From: Serinibacter arcticus
GTDB lineage: Bacteria; Actinomycetota; Actinomycetes; Actinomycetales; Beutenbergiaceae
DNA: 64,000 bases
Direction: 5' to 3'
Assembly: GCF_003121705.1 (NCBI RefSeq)
Contig: NZ_PYHR01000002.1
Span: 1,984,001-2,048,000, forward strand
The notes below the pieces were generated by a model, which did no database searches, was not told the DNA's origin, and saw nothing but the letters and a program-made list of their open reading frames with translations. The stretch's first letter is position 1. Every line of letters starts with the position of its first letter. Position numbers and translations under genes: made by a program. This document shows positions 33,498-39,508 of this stretch, piece by piece.

Positions 33498-34646
33498 CTA
33501 CGTCGTCGCGGGTGCGGGTGCGTCGCCGTCGCGGGAGGTCGTCGGCTCCTCCTCGCCCTCCGGGTCCGGCTCGGGTGCCGCCAGGCGCGCCGGCTCCGTG
33601 CTCCGGTCGCCCGTGAGCCATCGCAGCCAGGCCGTCCCCGGGTCGCCCTCCAGCACCAGCGCGCGCACGAGCAGCGTCAGCGGGATCGCGAGGATGGCGC
33701 CGAGCGGCCCGATCACGAAGGTCCAGAACAGGACCGAGAAGAAGCTCAGCGTGAGGCTGAGGCTGACCGCGTCGCTGACGAACTTCGGCTGCACGAGCAC
33801 CTGCAGCACGACGTTCACGACCGAGTAGACGACCGCCACGATGAGCATCAGAGGCCAGCCGCCGATCATGAGCGCCAGCACCATCGGCGGCACGAGACCC
33901 AGGATGAAGCCGATGTTCGGGATGAAGTTGGTGACGAACGCGAGCACGGCCCACACGGCGGGTGCCGGGACCCCGAGCCACCACAGCGCGAGACCGTCGA
34001 TGACCGCCACGATCGCGCCGAACGTCGCGTTGACCGTGAAGTACTTGCGCACCGAGGCGTTGTAGCGGCGGAACCGGTCCACGGTCGCGGTCCGCGAGGC
34101 ACCGAACGTGCGCTCGGCGCCGGTGTAGCGACCGCCGTCGGCCGCCATGAAGATGACGTAGGCGAGCACGAGGAAGAACCCCGTCAGCACGCCCAGCACG
34201 GCGCCGCCGAGCGACCGCGCCCACCCCATGATCGTGGCCGGGTCCAGCACGCTGGCGGCGGCGTCGGCGATCTGGGCCTCCAGCCCGATGGACTCGAGCC
34301 ACGCCAGGAGTCCGGCGGCCGAGTCCTGCAGCTCGTCGGTGTACTCGATCACGAGGTCGACGAACTCGATGCCGGCCCACGAGAGCAGCAGCGCCAGCAC
34401 CGCGAGGATGACGTACGCGAGCGTGATGACGACGGTTGTGCCGACCCACGTCGGGAGCCCGCGCCGGTCGAACCGGTGCCGCACCGGGTGGCAGATGATG
34501 ACGATGACGGCGCCGAGCAGCAGCGGCCCGACGACCTCGCGACCCAGGTAGAGGCCGGCGAGGGCGACGACGCCGGCCGCCAGACCGAGCAGGATCGTCA
34601 GCATCGGCGTCAGACCACCGGTCGGGGCACCACCGCTCGGACCCAC
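33498..34646 (-). CDS. AI-2E family transporter (possible N-terminal frameshift)
   Basis: The 382-residue protein has about eight membrane helices in the YdiK/PerM-like pattern, with IIGLVPP-like FIPNIGFILGLVPPMVLAL and GPLGAILAIPLTLLVRAL. The family is often labelled autoinducer-2 exporter, but its members move varied solutes. Upstream, an overlapping frame from 34804 to 34610 encodes a plausible hydrophilic N-terminus ending PETAPRPWVRAVVPRPV. Adding one G near 34613-34618 would join it to GLTPMLTILLG. The start shown (GTG at 34646) may therefore be artificial. Confidence 0.82.
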   Translation of the reverse strand: MGPSGGAPTGGLTPMLTILLGLAAGVVALAGLYLGREVVGPLLLGAVIVIICHPVRHRFDRRGLPTWVGTTVVITLAYVILAVLALLLSWAGIEFVDLVIEYTDELQDSAAGLLAWLESIGLEAQIADAAASVLDPATIMGWARSLGGAVLGVLTGFFLVLAYVIFMAADGGRYTGAERTFGASRTATVDRFRRYNASVRKYFTVNATFGAIVAVIDGLALWWLGVPAPAVWAVLAFVTNFIPNIGFILGLVPPMVLALMIGGWPLMLIVAVVYSVVNVVLQVLVQPKFVSDAVSLSLTLSFFSVLFWTFVIGPLGAILAIPLTLLVRALVLEGDPGTAWLRWLTGDRSTEPARLAAPEPDPEGEEEPTTSRDGDAPAPATT

Positions 34647-34857: not shown

Positions 34858-36465
34858 TCAGTACCCGAGGAAGACGTCCGTGCGCAGGTGTCGCACCCCG
34901 GCCGACCGTGCCGCATCCGTCACCGCGGCGACCGCCACCGGCGATCCCGAGACGAGCACGGTGCGCTCGGCGAGGTCGGGCACGGCGGCCGCGAGCACGT
35001 CGGGCGTGAGCGCCGCGCCCTCGACGACCTCCCAGCCCGCGGGCACGGCCGCGCGGGGCGCACCCGGCGGAAGCACCAGCACGAGGCGGACGCCCGACGG
35101 CAGCGCCGCGACGGCGGGGAGCGCGGCGCGCACGCCACCCCCGGGGATGTCGGCCGAGGGGGCGGTCACGACGTCGAGCACGTCGGCGACGTCCTTGACC
35201 GCGTGCACGAGCACGAGGTCCCGGGCCGCGAGCGTGCCGCGCGCGAGCGCGTCGAGGTGCGCCAGGAACGGCGTGACGCCGATCCCCGCGCCGACGAGCG
35301 CGAGCGGCGCGTCGCCGTCGGGCAGGAGGAAGTCGCCGCCCACCGAGGTGACGGGAAGCACGTCCCCGGGCCGGAGCGCGACCAGCGCGGCCTTCACCGG
35401 GCTGGGCTCGGCGCCGGGCACGGCCGCGATCCGCGTGACGAGCCTGACCGGCCCGCCCGCGGGGTCCGAGGCGATGCTCAGCACGCGACGGCGGCCGCGC
35501 GGGTCGCCCACCCCGGCCGCGGGCACGTCGAGCTCGAGGTACTGACCCGGCAGCATCCGCAGCGGGGCGGACGGCGTGAAGGTGAGGTCGAGCAGGTCGC
35601 CGCTGCGGCGCGAGCTCTCCAGCCGCAGCACCACCCGGTGCCGCATCCCGAACGCGAACGCCACGACGTTCCCGACGGCGAGCGCCAGCTCCGGGGTGAT
35701 GCCCACCGGCAGGGTCGGCACGAAGGGCAGCACCGGCAGGACCGAGATCACGGCCACCAGCACGCCGACGGTGATCCGCTGCCACTGCCGCGGCGGCGTG
35801 GTGAGCGGCTCGCTCAGCATGAACGCGCCGAGGAAGACGATCGGCGAGGAGCCGAAGGTGAAGGTCGCGGCCTGGGCGAGCGACAGGCCCGAGCCGGTGT
35901 ACGCCACGAAGGTCAGGGCGAGGGCGGGCACCACGAAGCTCAGGCCGTACAGCAGGCGTCGCGTGCGCCACAGCACCACCAGGCCGGTCACGGCGACCAC
36001 GAGCAGCAGCGCCTGGCTGCCCACCCACCAGATGCTGACGCCGAGGCCGCTGAGGCCGACGACGAGCAGGCCGGCCACGACGGGGTTGAGCAGGTGGCGA
36101 CCGCGCCACGCGAGCAGGTACTTGGAGATCCCGGCGGCGAGGCCGGCGACAGCGAGCACGAGCAGGTCCTGCCCGTACCCCGGCCACAGGATGAGCGCCA
36201 GGATGAGGCCGGTGATGACCGACGACGGCGGGTGGGGCCGCGAGCGCGTGACGAGCGCACCGATCCAGGTGCCGGCCGCCGTCGCCACGACGCCCACCAC
36301 CAGGCTCAGCGCGATCGCGCCGGGGTCGTAGGGCAGCTGCCCCGACGCGGCGGCGACGACGGCGAAGGTGCTGATCAGCACCAGCGAGGCGGTGACCAGC
36401 AGGTACATCGAGACCCGGCCGAGGCCGGCGTCCACGACGGCGGTCAGGCGGCGCAGGGCGCTCAT
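34858..36465 (-). CDS. NqrB/RnfD-like membrane domain fused to a ferredoxin-NADP+ reductase-type flavoprotein domain
   Basis: Residues 1 to about 285 form a membrane domain of about eight or more helices resembling NqrB/RnfD (SSVITGLILALILWPG, RGRHLLNPVVAGLLVVG, SPIVFLGAFMLSEPLTTPP). Residues about 290-535 form an FNR-type module: FAD-binding MLPGQYLELDVP and RRVLSIAS, NAD(P)-binding LVGAGIGVTPFLAHL, and the C-terminal DVFLGY. No Fe-S cluster motif is present. One chain could thus pass electrons from NAD(P)H through FAD to a membrane flavin. The start overlaps the end of apbE and the FMN-binding lipoprotein gene lies just upstream, giving an Nqr/Rnf-like minimal set. The direction and acceptor are unknown. 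Confidence 0.87.
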   Translation of the reverse strand: MSALRRLTAVVDAGLGRVSMYLLVTASLVLISTFAVVAAASGQLPYDPGAIALSLVVGVVATAAGTWIGALVTRSRPHPPSSVITGLILALILWPGYGQDLLVLAVAGLAAGISKYLLAWRGRHLLNPVVAGLLVVGLSGLGVSIWWVGSQALLLVVAVTGLVVLWRTRRLLYGLSFVVPALALTFVAYTGSGLSLAQAATFTFGSSPIVFLGAFMLSEPLTTPPRQWQRITVGVLVAVISVLPVLPFVPTLPVGITPELALAVGNVVAFAFGMRHRVVLRLESSRRSGDLLDLTFTPSAPLRMLPGQYLELDVPAAGVGDPRGRRRVLSIASDPAGGPVRLVTRIAAVPGAEPSPVKAALVALRPGDVLPVTSVGGDFLLPDGDAPLALVGAGIGVTPFLAHLDALARGTLAARDLVLVHAVKDVADVLDVVTAPSADIPGGGVRAALPAVAALPSGVRLVLVLPPGAPRAAVPAGWEVVEGAALTPDVLAAAVPDLAERTVLVSGSPVAVAAVTDAARSAGVRHLRTDVFLGY

Positions 36466-37408
36466 GCGAAGACCTCTCCGTAGGCGAGGGCCCCGCCGGG
36501 GCGGGACTCGGCGGCCCCGCGGTCGCGGGGAGCCCGGCGTGCACGAGCGGACCGCCGGAGGGCATCGCGACGACGGCGTGCACGCCGTCCAGCGCGGTCA
36601 GCACCTGCTCCGGCGGGAGGAAGAACGCCGCCGTGGAGGCGGCGTCGGCGAGCATCGCGGTGCGCGCGACCGCCCACGTGGCCACGATGCCGTCGACCGG
36701 GCGGCCGGTGCGGGCGTCGATGACGTGGTGCAGGCCGTCGGCCCACGCGCGGCGGTTGGTCGCGGAGGCGGCGATCGCGCCGTCGCGGACCCCGACGACG
36801 CCGACGGCGCGGGTCGGGTCGAAGGGGTGCTCGAGCGCGACGCGCAGCGGCTCCTCGCCCGTCCCGACGGCGCCGGCGTGCCGCATGTCCCCGCCGGCGT
36901 CGACGGTGAAGACGTCCTGGCGGGCGCGGAGCAGGATGTCGGCCACGATGTCGACGAGCCGGCCCTTGCCGACGGCCCCGATGTCGAGGACGGAACCGCG
37001 CTTCACGGTGAGCAGCGCCGTCGTCCCCTGGAACAGGCCCTCCCAGGTGGGGACGGGCGCGGGTACGCCGGGCGCGGGCGTGAGTCGGTAGCCGGCGTCG
37101 TAGCCGAGGTGCTCGAGCGTGGCGCCCACCAGCGGGTTCACCGCGCCGTGGGTCGCCGCGTGCAGGCGCGAGTAGAGGCGGAGCATCGCCTCGCCGTCGT
37201 GCCCCACGGGAACGGTCCCGCCCTCACGGCCGAGGGCGGTGACCAGGGAGTCGGACCGGAAGCGGGACCACATGTGGTCGAACTCCGCGATGGCGGCCTG
37301 GATGCGCGCCTCGACGCTCAGCGGGAGCGGCTGCGGGGTGTCGATCTGCCACAGCGTCCCGATGCCCTCGAACTGCATCCGGCCCGACGGTGGAGCCTGC
37401 TCAGGCAC
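36462..37408 (-). pseudogene. apbE: FAD:protein FMN transferase (ApbE), frameshifted near the C-terminus
   Basis: ApbE attaches FMN covalently to a Thr of partner proteins. The main frame shows VKRGSVLDIGAVGKGRLVDIV, FTVDAGGDMRHAG, HHVIDARTGRPVDG and the metal-binding ARTAMLADAASTAAFFL. Near 36524-36526 the natural C-terminus (DRGAAESRPGGALAYGEVFA) lies in another frame. One added G restores a 315-residue protein whose stop overlaps the next start as ATGA. Without it the frame runs on far into the neighbour. The GTG start overlaps the lipoprotein gene end. Only the last ~20 residues are affected, so even if real some activity may remain. Confidence 0.88.
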
Positions 37409-37898
37409 CCGCCTCGCCCTTGATGATCTCCACGGCCTCGTTGAAGCCGCCCGAGGTCAGGGAGGAGCCGGCGACCTTGTCGACGGCGAGCTCGTCCAGC
37501 GGGACGCCCTCGACGACGTCGGCGATGCCGTCGATGAACTCGCCCTGGAAGCGCACGGAGTTGGGGTGCTCGGCGAGCGAGACGACCTCGACGTCGGTGA
37601 CAACGTCGGAGGCGAGGGTCAGCGTGACCTCGACGCTCTCCTCACCGCCCGGGGAGATGTAGCTGCCGGTCGCGGTGTAGCTGCCGTCGGCGTAGGTGCC
37701 GCCGGTGGCTGCTCCGGCCTCGTCGGAACCGGCGCTCTCGGAGGCGGACTCCGACGCGGTCTCGGTCGACTCGGCCGAGGACTCCCCCGTCTCGTCGGTG
37801 GTGACGGCCGGGTCGTCCGCGGGAGCGCACGCGGCGAGGGCGCTGACGGCAGCGAGAGATGCGGCGACGGTGACGGCGCGGCGGGCTGCGAGGGTCAT
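37401..37898 (-). CDS. FMN-binding domain lipoprotein, presumed ApbE substrate
   Basis: The 165-residue protein has a lipobox VSALAAC, a Ser/Glu/Thr-rich linker (about residues 30-65) and a compact FMN-binding domain (GSYTATGSYISPGGEESVEVTLTL ... VEVVSLAEHPNSVRFQGEF). The flavinylation site is the Thr in VAGSSLTSGGFN, matching the D/S-x-x-T-S consensus modified by ApbE in NqrC/RnfG-type subunits. It would display covalent FMN on the outer face of the membrane. It is first in the operon with apbE and the NqrB-FNR fusion. Confidence 0.9.
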   Translation of the reverse strand: MTLAARRAVTVAASLAAVSALAACAPADDPAVTTDETGESSAESTETASESASESAGSDEAGAATGGTYADGSYTATGSYISPGGEESVEVTLTLASDVVTDVEVVSLAEHPNSVRFQGEFIDGIADVVEGVPLDELAVDKVAGSSLTSGGFNEAVEIIKGEAGA

Positions 37899-37964: not shown

Positions 37965-38666
37965 CTATGAGCGGTCTGTGAGTTTCCTGGGTGAGACGAG
38001 CGTCTCGGCCCCGCGACGGGGTGATCGGACCTGCAGCAGCACCCCGAGCGACCAGAGGACCGCGAGCAGGATCGCCCCGGAGACGAGCACGCGCGGCGTC
38101 CCGACCACCGACGGGTCCAGGAACGGATACGGGAGCGTCGCGGCGCCGAGGGTGATCAGGAGCCCCATCCCGATCGCCCAGCACGCGGGCCAGACGATCC
38201 AGACCGAGGCCCGCCGTGCCACGGCCGCGAACGGCCTCGGGCTCCGCGCGAGCACGTCGCGGCGCAGCACGACGACGGCGAGCACCGGCAGCACGAGGTG
38301 CTGGAGCACCGAGGCGACGGCGGCGACCGGCTCGTCCAGCAGCCACCGGCCCTGGCCCTCGCCCGGCGCGATCGCGAGCGCGTAGACGACACCCGCGAGC
38401 ACCGATCCGACGGTCGCGGCCCCCCGCACGGTCGCGAGCGCCGTCGAGCCCCGCAGCCTCGGCACGAGGGCGAGGGCCGTGCCGAGGGCGAGCAGCAGGG
38501 CCGACTGGACGGTGAAGTAGACCAGGTCGACCAGCGGTCGACCGGTGGCGAGCATCTGGGCGGCGACGCCGGCCAGGGCCACAGCGACCAGGGTGCGGGC
38601 TCGGGTGCGGGCTCGGGTGCGGGCGAGGGCGTCAGCGACGTTCCCGGGGCGGGGACCGCTCGTCAC
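37965..38666 (-). CDS. Pr6Pr-family membrane protein
   Basis: The 233-residue protein has six membrane helices, including TLVAVALAGVAAQMLATG, LVDLVYFTVQSALLLALGTALAL and VWIVWPACWAIGMGLLITLG. Size and layout match the Pr6Pr (FAR-17a/AIG1-like) membrane proteins of actinobacteria, whose function is undefined. The second of two adjacent GTG codons (38666) has GGAGG five bases upstream and was chosen. It lies 66 bases downstream of, and in the same direction as, nothing in its operon; the flavin locus reads away from it. Confidence 0.7.
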   Translation of the reverse strand: MTSGPRPGNVADALARTRARTRARTLVAVALAGVAAQMLATGRPLVDLVYFTVQSALLLALGTALALVPRLRGSTALATVRGAATVGSVLAGVVYALAIAPGEGQGRWLLDEPVAAVASVLQHLVLPVLAVVVLRRDVLARSPRPFAAVARRASVWIVWPACWAIGMGLLITLGAATLPYPFLDPSVVGTPRVLVSGAILLAVLWSLGVLLQVRSPRRGAETLVSPRKLTDRS

Positions 38667-38848
38667 GCTCACCTCCGGGGTCCCTCGTCCGTCCGCCGGA
38701 CCTCGCCGCAGGACGCTACCGGCCGCCTCGGGGGCGCGGAAGTCGTCGGGATCGTCGACGTCGGGGCCCGCGACCGCGGCGCGGGGTGCCGGTATCGTTC
38801 GGTGCGCTTCGTCAGTGCCCCACCTCGGGCCGAGCGTGGGGGAATGCC

Positions 38849-39508
38849 GTGAGCACACCGAGAAGGATCAGGGTCGCCGCCGTCGACGACCACCCGGTGC
38901 TGCTGCGAGGCCTGCAGGCCACGCTCGCCACGAGCGCCGAGATCGACCTCGTCACGGTGAGCACGACCGTCGGCGAGCTGCTCGCCGTCGACGATCTCCG
39001 CGTGGACGTCGTCCTGCTCGACGTCGACCTCCGCGACGGGACCGACCCCGCCGACAACGTGCGCGCCGTCGTCGGCCGCGGTCTGCCGGTGGTCCTCTAC
39101 ACGAGCGAGCACCGCGCCGCGCTCGTCCAGCGCACGATGGCGGCCGGCGCGCTCGGCCTCGTCCTCAAGGGCGACCCCGAGCGCGACGTCGTCGAGGCCG
39201 TGCAGTCCGCCGCGCGCGGGGAGGTCTACATGAGCTCGCGCCTGGCGATGGAGCTCGTCTCCCACCCCGCGGGCGAGGTGTCGCTGTCGCCGCGCGAGCG
39301 CGAGGTGCTCACGCTGCTGGCGGCCGGCCTGCCGTGGTCCGCCGTCGCGAAGGACCTGGGGATCTCCGTCTCCACCGCCCGCACCCACATGGCGCGCGTG
39401 CTCGAGGCGTACTCCGCGATCGGGATGCCGCTGCGCGACGGCCCGCGCGAGGCCGTCGCGCGGGCGCTGAGCTCCGGTCAGATCGACGACCCCTACCGCC
39501 TGGGGTGA
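38849..39508 (+). CDS. NarL/LuxR-family response regulator
   Basis: The 219-residue protein has a receiver domain (AAVDDHPVLLRGL, phospho-acceptor Asp in VVLLDVDLRDG, Lys in LVLKGDPE) and a C-terminal LuxR helix-turn-helix (LSPREREVLTLLAAGLPWSAVAKDLGISVSTARTHMARVLEAY). The GTG start follows a GGGGGAA stretch. Its stop overlaps the GTG of the sensor kinase gene (GTGA), so the two are coupled. Confidence 0.92.
   Translation: MSTPRRIRVAAVDDHPVLLRGLQATLATSAEIDLVTVSTTVGELLAVDDLRVDVVLLDVDLRDGTDPADNVRAVVGRGLPVVLYTSEHRAALVQRTMAAGALGLVLKGDPERDVVEAVQSAARGEVYMSSRLAMELVSHPAGEVSLSPREREVLTLLAAGLPWSAVAKDLGISVSTARTHMARVLEAYSAIGMPLRDGPREAVARALSSGQIDDPYRLG

Follow-up and report, generated by a model that had tools for sequence, protein, structure and literature searches.

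A conserved NQR/RNF-like gene set in Serinibacter arcticus with a predicted serine FMN attachment site

Introduction

Gene sets that join an FMN-binding lipoprotein, a flavin transferase and a membrane-bound reductase are genuine, conserved and already described. Meheust et al. 2021 named them 'NQR/RNF-like', reported 127 clusters, and proposed NAD(P)H as the donor and an extracytosolic FMN as the acceptor of a one-way flow of electrons (PMC8238504). Huang et al. 2024 presented a two-subunit model of an 'Nqr/Rnf-like complex', based on a pair from Ktedonobacter racemifer, and suggested that the small subunit's FMN visits a flavin site of its membrane partner (PMC10979944). In a literature search that covered few subscription papers, we found no experiments on an NQR/RNF-like system and no report on what the set reduces.

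The locus analyzed here had been considered possibly undescribed in a first-pass annotation, which is wrong because the same gene set was published in 2021 and 2024 under the two names above. Our reading, based on sequence comparison and held with a probability of roughly 75%, is that its three genes would form a small flavin-based wire, leading one way from the cell interior to a flavin-tagged surface lipoprotein.

Results

The window, by which we mean the whole stretch of 64,000 nucleotides, contains three adjacent minus-strand genes (37898-34858) for an FMN_bind lipoprotein, ApbE and a membrane/FAD-NAD(P)H reductase fusion; their coordinates, strand and adjacency agree with the first-pass annotation. 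Conservation is given for 36 rows from 35 distinct genomes, as locus L034 repeats L032, or for 30 family members. The features are:

37401..37898, minus strand: FMN_bind lipoprotein, 165 aa, with signal sequence and lipobox, linker and FMN_bind domain
37461..37463, minus strand: codon of Ser146, the predicted FMN attachment residue, in the motif DKVAGSS (Ser in 36/36 rows)
36462..37408, minus strand: apbE, flavin transferase (PF02424), with its end in the relatives' frame (TGA 36462-36464)
36587-37360, minus strand: apbE catalytic domain, upstream of the frame change
36489..36559, minus strand: ApbE linker of 71 bases with the frame change relative to two same-genus relatives
35644..36465, minus strand: N-terminal NqrB/RnfD-like membrane domain of the fusion, residues 1-274 (hhalign with RnfD-type proteins; PF03116 in relatives)
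34858..35643, minus strand: C-terminal FAD/NAD(P)H reductase domain of the fusion, residues 275-535 (profile matches to FNR-type reductases in PDB; Foldseek)

The lipoprotein and ApbE genes overlap by 8 bases, and apbE overlaps the fusion gene by 4 bases in 24/36 rows (starts chosen by script). No promoter was seen in a sigma-70 scan, a negative result of little meaning at the G+C content of the locus.

In each of the 35 distinct genomes retrieved because they carry the fusion, the trio is collinear and encoded on a single strand. In the order of the source organism, the fusion was matched over both domains in 34/297 sampled genomes at E≤1e-60; at E≤0.001 there were 92 genomes, most of the further matches covering the reductase domain only. 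Further afield the fusion is rare: in the phylum, a profile search gave near full-length fusion matches in 8/396 genomes (rows read by eye), and a single-sequence search found the fusion in 3/198 genomes at E≤1e-30, including the source genome. Outside the order, an ApbE-like sequence adjoins all four fusions whose flanks (1.5 kb) were scanned, and at one of them the lipoprotein was found as well. One of the eight phylum homologues, from outside the order (locus L075, genome G587), is interrupted in its membrane half by a stop codon.

The closest named relative, in a search that returned two loci, is Serinibacter arcticus with 77% identity. Comparison with two same-genus relatives, made without a significance test, gave dN values of 0.10-0.24 and dS values of 0.41-0.57, with dN/dS ratios of 0.22-0.25 for ApbE, 0.32-0.34 for the fusion and 0.41-0.59 for the lipoprotein. 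At E≤0.001 the source genome has a single ApbE and a single FMN_bind gene, both at this locus.

Within 8 kb of the module we found no recurring functional partner: among the 25 largest clusters, no ORF cluster beyond the trio and its shadow frames occurs in more than 12/35 loci. Recurrence of the largest clusters that flank the trio tracks lineage, except for two ORF clusters that join L041-type loci to others. No iron gene was recognized as recurring near the module (clusters judged from sequences, not Pfam), in agreement with an outward flow that serves envelope protein or lipid repair, quinones or extracellular flavins rather than iron, a reading to which we give a slightly less than even chance. 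Iron is favored by the VIT1 iron transporter found in 6/127 published clusters (PMC8238504) and by an apbE transposon mutant of Bifidobacterium breve that is impaired with ferrous chelators (PMC5449479), the latter being an indirect link of ApbE, rather than of the module, to iron limitation. Ferric iron for uptake is our first guess for the acceptor, with the odds against it.

As to individual neighbors, a hydrophobic protein is encoded upstream on the same strand (37965-38858, minus strand; no Pfam match at E≤0.1) and an AI-2E family transporter downstream (33498-34646, minus strand). In a comparison of five loci (L034-L038), the transporter accompanies the module in both same-genus loci but was not seen in L036-L038, and a ROK neighbor is kept in one of the five. 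In two genomes a MOSC-domain gene (PF03473) is located between apbE and the fusion gene (L059:7342-7884, L063:7340-7888); its product is a possible redox partner.

The lipoprotein starts with a signal sequence and the lipobox LAAC with Cys24 (found by pattern, not SignalP), followed by a low-complexity Ser/Glu/Thr linker and the FMN_bind domain at about residues 70-165. PF04205 (FMN_bind) matches it weakly (E 4.5e-4; 21.2 bits, cut-off 22); at E≤0.001 the match is found in 14/30 lipoprotein members, the window one included. A Foldseek search with its model (mean pLDDT 69.0; blocks of the domain, 71-93) yielded no match at E≤0.001. The best matches were RnfG chains (E 0.03 or worse), with SaFMN3 and NqrC also present and IscU-type and other unrelated chains interspersed.

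Residues 140-148 of the window lipoprotein read DKVAGSSLT and place Ser146 at the FMN position, for which a Thr had been annotated; Ser occupies it in 36/36 rows (VAGSSLT in 28, VSGSSLT in 6, VASSSLT and VSGASLT in 1 each). Relative to the motif D-x-x-[ST]-G-A-[ST], which we took from PMC12052999, the window sequence keeps the D, the G and the final Ser but departs from it at positions 4 (A) and 6 (S). According to the same source, Ser is accepted as an ApbE target but is less favored than Thr. An FMN-site motif was obtained for 25/29 FMN_bind loci of the order, with Thr in 17 and Ser in 8, and one Ser locus (L170) belongs to this module. In a comparison with a single, pattern-found RnfG sequence, Ser146 falls without gaps on the T of SGAT, but the match is weak (probability 0.40 percent, E 0.15). 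We predict Ser146 to be the FMN attachment residue.

The window ApbE matches PF02424 with 130 bits (cut-off 25.6) and contains the motifs DIGAVGKGRLVD, GGD, HHVIDARTG and ADAASTA, so that the annotation of the first two genes as lipoprotein and flavin transferase is upheld by lipobox and ApbE domain. It has no visible signal peptide, and no earlier start codon would add one. In all 36 rows, no start codon gives ApbE an N-terminal hydrophobic segment by a crude measure other than SignalP, the maximal mean over 15 residues: as far as shortly beyond the IGT motif its top value is 0.99, whereas the lipoprotein reaches at least 1.69 in 34/36 rows, the other two probably having a start chosen too far in.

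We considered the absent signal peptide as a peculiarity of this module and rejected this, as 24/24 other ApbE loci of the order (L119-L142; best matches rather than all loci) begin right at the domain and show no clear hydrophobic stretch at the N-terminus, L124 and L129 being borderline. Since these loci behave alike, the absence seems to be characteristic of the order. Secretion is the rule among ApbEs, but cytosolic ones have been described, for example for a soluble fumarate reductase (PMC12052999); at the level of titles and listings we found no paper on ApbE without signal peptide in Actinobacteria. These results suggest that in these bacteria ApbE resides at a site at odds with the common view of it as a secreted enzyme.

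The ApbE frame of the window stays open until 34610 and thus through the whole fusion gene. In two same-genus relatives, ApbE ends with APLAYGEVFA followed by a stop codon, with a 4-base overlap with the fusion start; the window encodes nearly this tail in another frame, leaving its own C-terminal tail out of frame. Between two anchors, the linker has 71 bases in the window (2 mod 3) but 0 mod 3 in L034 and L035. This difference in length is not divisible by three. We read the frame shift in the GC-rich linker as a probable sequencing indel or recent mutation behind the catalytic domain. The late stop and the linker length would also be expected of a locus decaying in this strain, in which the frameshift causes a long read-through and disturbs the coupled translation of the fusion. 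Such decay is unlikely, given that the catalytic domain precedes the shift, that the downstream sequence retains nearly the relatives' tail in the other frame as well as the fusion start, that the fusion and lipoprotein frames are intact, and that an indel from the sequencing of GC-rich DNA would account for the frame equally well.

The third protein is a fusion of a membrane and an FNR domain, as annotated, with a length of 535 aa; its NqrB-like identity, also annotated, is seen via relatives and hhalign and not via a Pfam match of the window protein, which has sub-threshold matches only. PF03116 does not match the window fusion at E≤0.1, and of the 30 members it matches 11 at E≤0.1 and 4 at E≤1e-5, the window protein being in neither group. 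In hhalign, the profile of the 30 fusions matched 10 RnfD-type (PF03116) proteins of the phylum with a probability of 94.4 (E 9.1e-8), and the fusion stretches SSVITGL, RHLLNP and FMLSEPLTTPP aligned with conserved RnfD-type stretches. Because of these matches of relatives and profile, we call the membrane domain NqrB/RnfD-like. With most members below Pfam thresholds, Pfam-based surveys are suggested to undercount the system, and its published count may be too low.

In the reductase domain we found the motifs GQY, RRVLS, GAGIGVTP and a C-terminal TDVFLGY. The profile of the 30 fusions matched FNR-type reductases in PDB (best 2.7e-17), NqrF FAD domains among them, and PF00175 (NAD-binding domain) was found in 22/30 members at E≤0.1, the window protein scoring 14.9 bits (cut-off 22). 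A C-terminal NAD-binding domain is present by these profile matches and by PF00175 in relatives. An AlphaFold2 model of the fusion, built from three sequences and of low confidence (mean pLDDT 62.8), gave a best Foldseek match of 9.6e-10, with NqrF at 6.0e-9. The 50 matches listed were all to reductases or related flavoproteins, with no NqrB or RnfD among them, so the membrane half is not confirmed by fold.

At the position aligned with the flavinylated Thr of RnfD, which we take to be the T of ATPL, the 30 fusions have T in 17, S in 6, A in 3, D in 2 and N in 2, without an ApbE motif. The flavinylation Thr of NqrB/RnfD is therefore not conserved, but Thr or Ser is still present in 23/30, and a relic or occasional flavinylation site may remain in the membrane domain. 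The lack of conservation agrees with that noted for the membrane subunit in PMC10979944. Homology to NqrB/RnfD could also mean that the fusion is a minimal ion pump that, in the manner of Nqr, drives Na+ or H+ transport by oxidizing NAD(P)H. We regard this as very improbable: the aligned position is not invariant, a return path to an acceptor on the cytosolic side is lacking (an argument of PMC8238504), and no PF03116 match, the mark of a standard NqrB/RnfD of six-subunit Na+-NQR or RNF, was found in the source genome at E≤0.001.

The window fusion contains no Cys and neither do 17/36 rows; nowhere in the alignment of 30 rows does a column hold as many as 10 Cys. Of the His residues, H124 alone is invariant (n=30), while H78 in the membrane domain is His in 18/30. 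The lack of conserved Cys and the single invariant His argue against Fe-S clusters and bis-His haem and leave flavins. An electron crossing via haem or Fe-S, as in MsrQ-, PepSY- or NapH-like systems, could be considered since such systems also occur with flavinylation genes (PMC8238504) and since the membrane domain of the window protein contains two His; in view of the Cys and His counts, and with no Ferric_reduct (PF01794) match in the source genome at E≤0.001, it has hardly any probability.

Discussion

In the flavin wire that we favor, the C-terminal FNR domain of the fusion would oxidize NAD(P)H and reduce its own FAD, from which electrons would pass to flavin bound non-covalently by the NqrB/RnfD-like membrane domain and on to the covalent FMN at Ser146 of the lipoprotein, on the outside of the membrane. 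ApbE, whose gene lies between the other two, would attach this FMN, and the lipoprotein would reduce an extracytosolic acceptor encoded away from the locus. What the sequences show is gene order, domain homology, conservation, the invariant Ser, no conserved Cys and only one invariant His; flavin content, direction of flow and acceptor we infer. The path is supported by having been proposed in print for the same architecture (PMC8238504, PMC10979944). Of the route without Fe-S clusters drawn in the first-pass annotation, architecture and path are plausible and fit the Cys-free fusion and its one invariant His, whereas its novelty and its Thr do not hold.

Several findings count against this mechanism: the target of ApbE is exported although ApbE has no signal peptide, the ApbE frame shifts near its end, the low-confidence model of the fusion does not confirm the membrane domain by fold, AGSS departs from the motif, and a second membrane-domain His, H78, is present in 18/30. 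In a more far-reaching version for the order as a whole, ApbE without signal peptide would load FMN onto the lipoprotein in the cytosol before export, the exported Ser-FMN would be fed through a membrane protein free of haem and Fe-S, two proteins and their flavins being sufficient, and the family would be far larger than the published count; this version we consider doubtful. Members below Pfam thresholds, ApbE without signal peptide, a genome with a single target and a frame shift in ApbE were not found in either description of the system, in the parts of PMC8238504 and PMC10979944 consulted. The locus offers a compact test case for flavin-only transmembrane electron transfer, in a genome whose transferase has one recognized target.

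Among known systems, the module shares a surface lipoprotein, here predicted to be flavinylated, and an ApbE-type transferase with the flavin-based extracellular electron transfer system of Listeria, whose components we take to be PplA, FmnB and Ndh2. It differs in its membrane electron carrier, and none of the other Listeria genes was recognized among the scanned flanking genes; the window lipoprotein matches the PplA model weakly (E 0.017), in the signal and linker region only. With Na+-NQR and RNF it has in common the NqrB/RnfD-like, NqrC/RnfG-like (FMN_bind) and NqrF-like FAD domains, but no further subunit was recognized beside the genes, the NqrB- and NqrF-like parts are fused, and the fusion lacks Cys. 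It is also unlike the MsrQ-like flavinylation systems of Actinobacteria, whose membrane part is the haem-binding PF01794 (PMC8238504), a family without a match in this genome.

The closest resemblance is to the NQR/RNF-like flavinylation systems. The window fusion would escape the Pfam thresholds used to find the published set; in the rows examined here, the module has a Ser site in 36/36 and an ApbE without visible signal peptide. Like the module, these systems combine an FMN_bind protein, ApbE, and an NqrB/RnfD-like membrane and NAD-binding reductase protein; they are reported mainly from Actinobacteria and CPR, and their NqrB/RnfD flavinylation Thr is not conserved.
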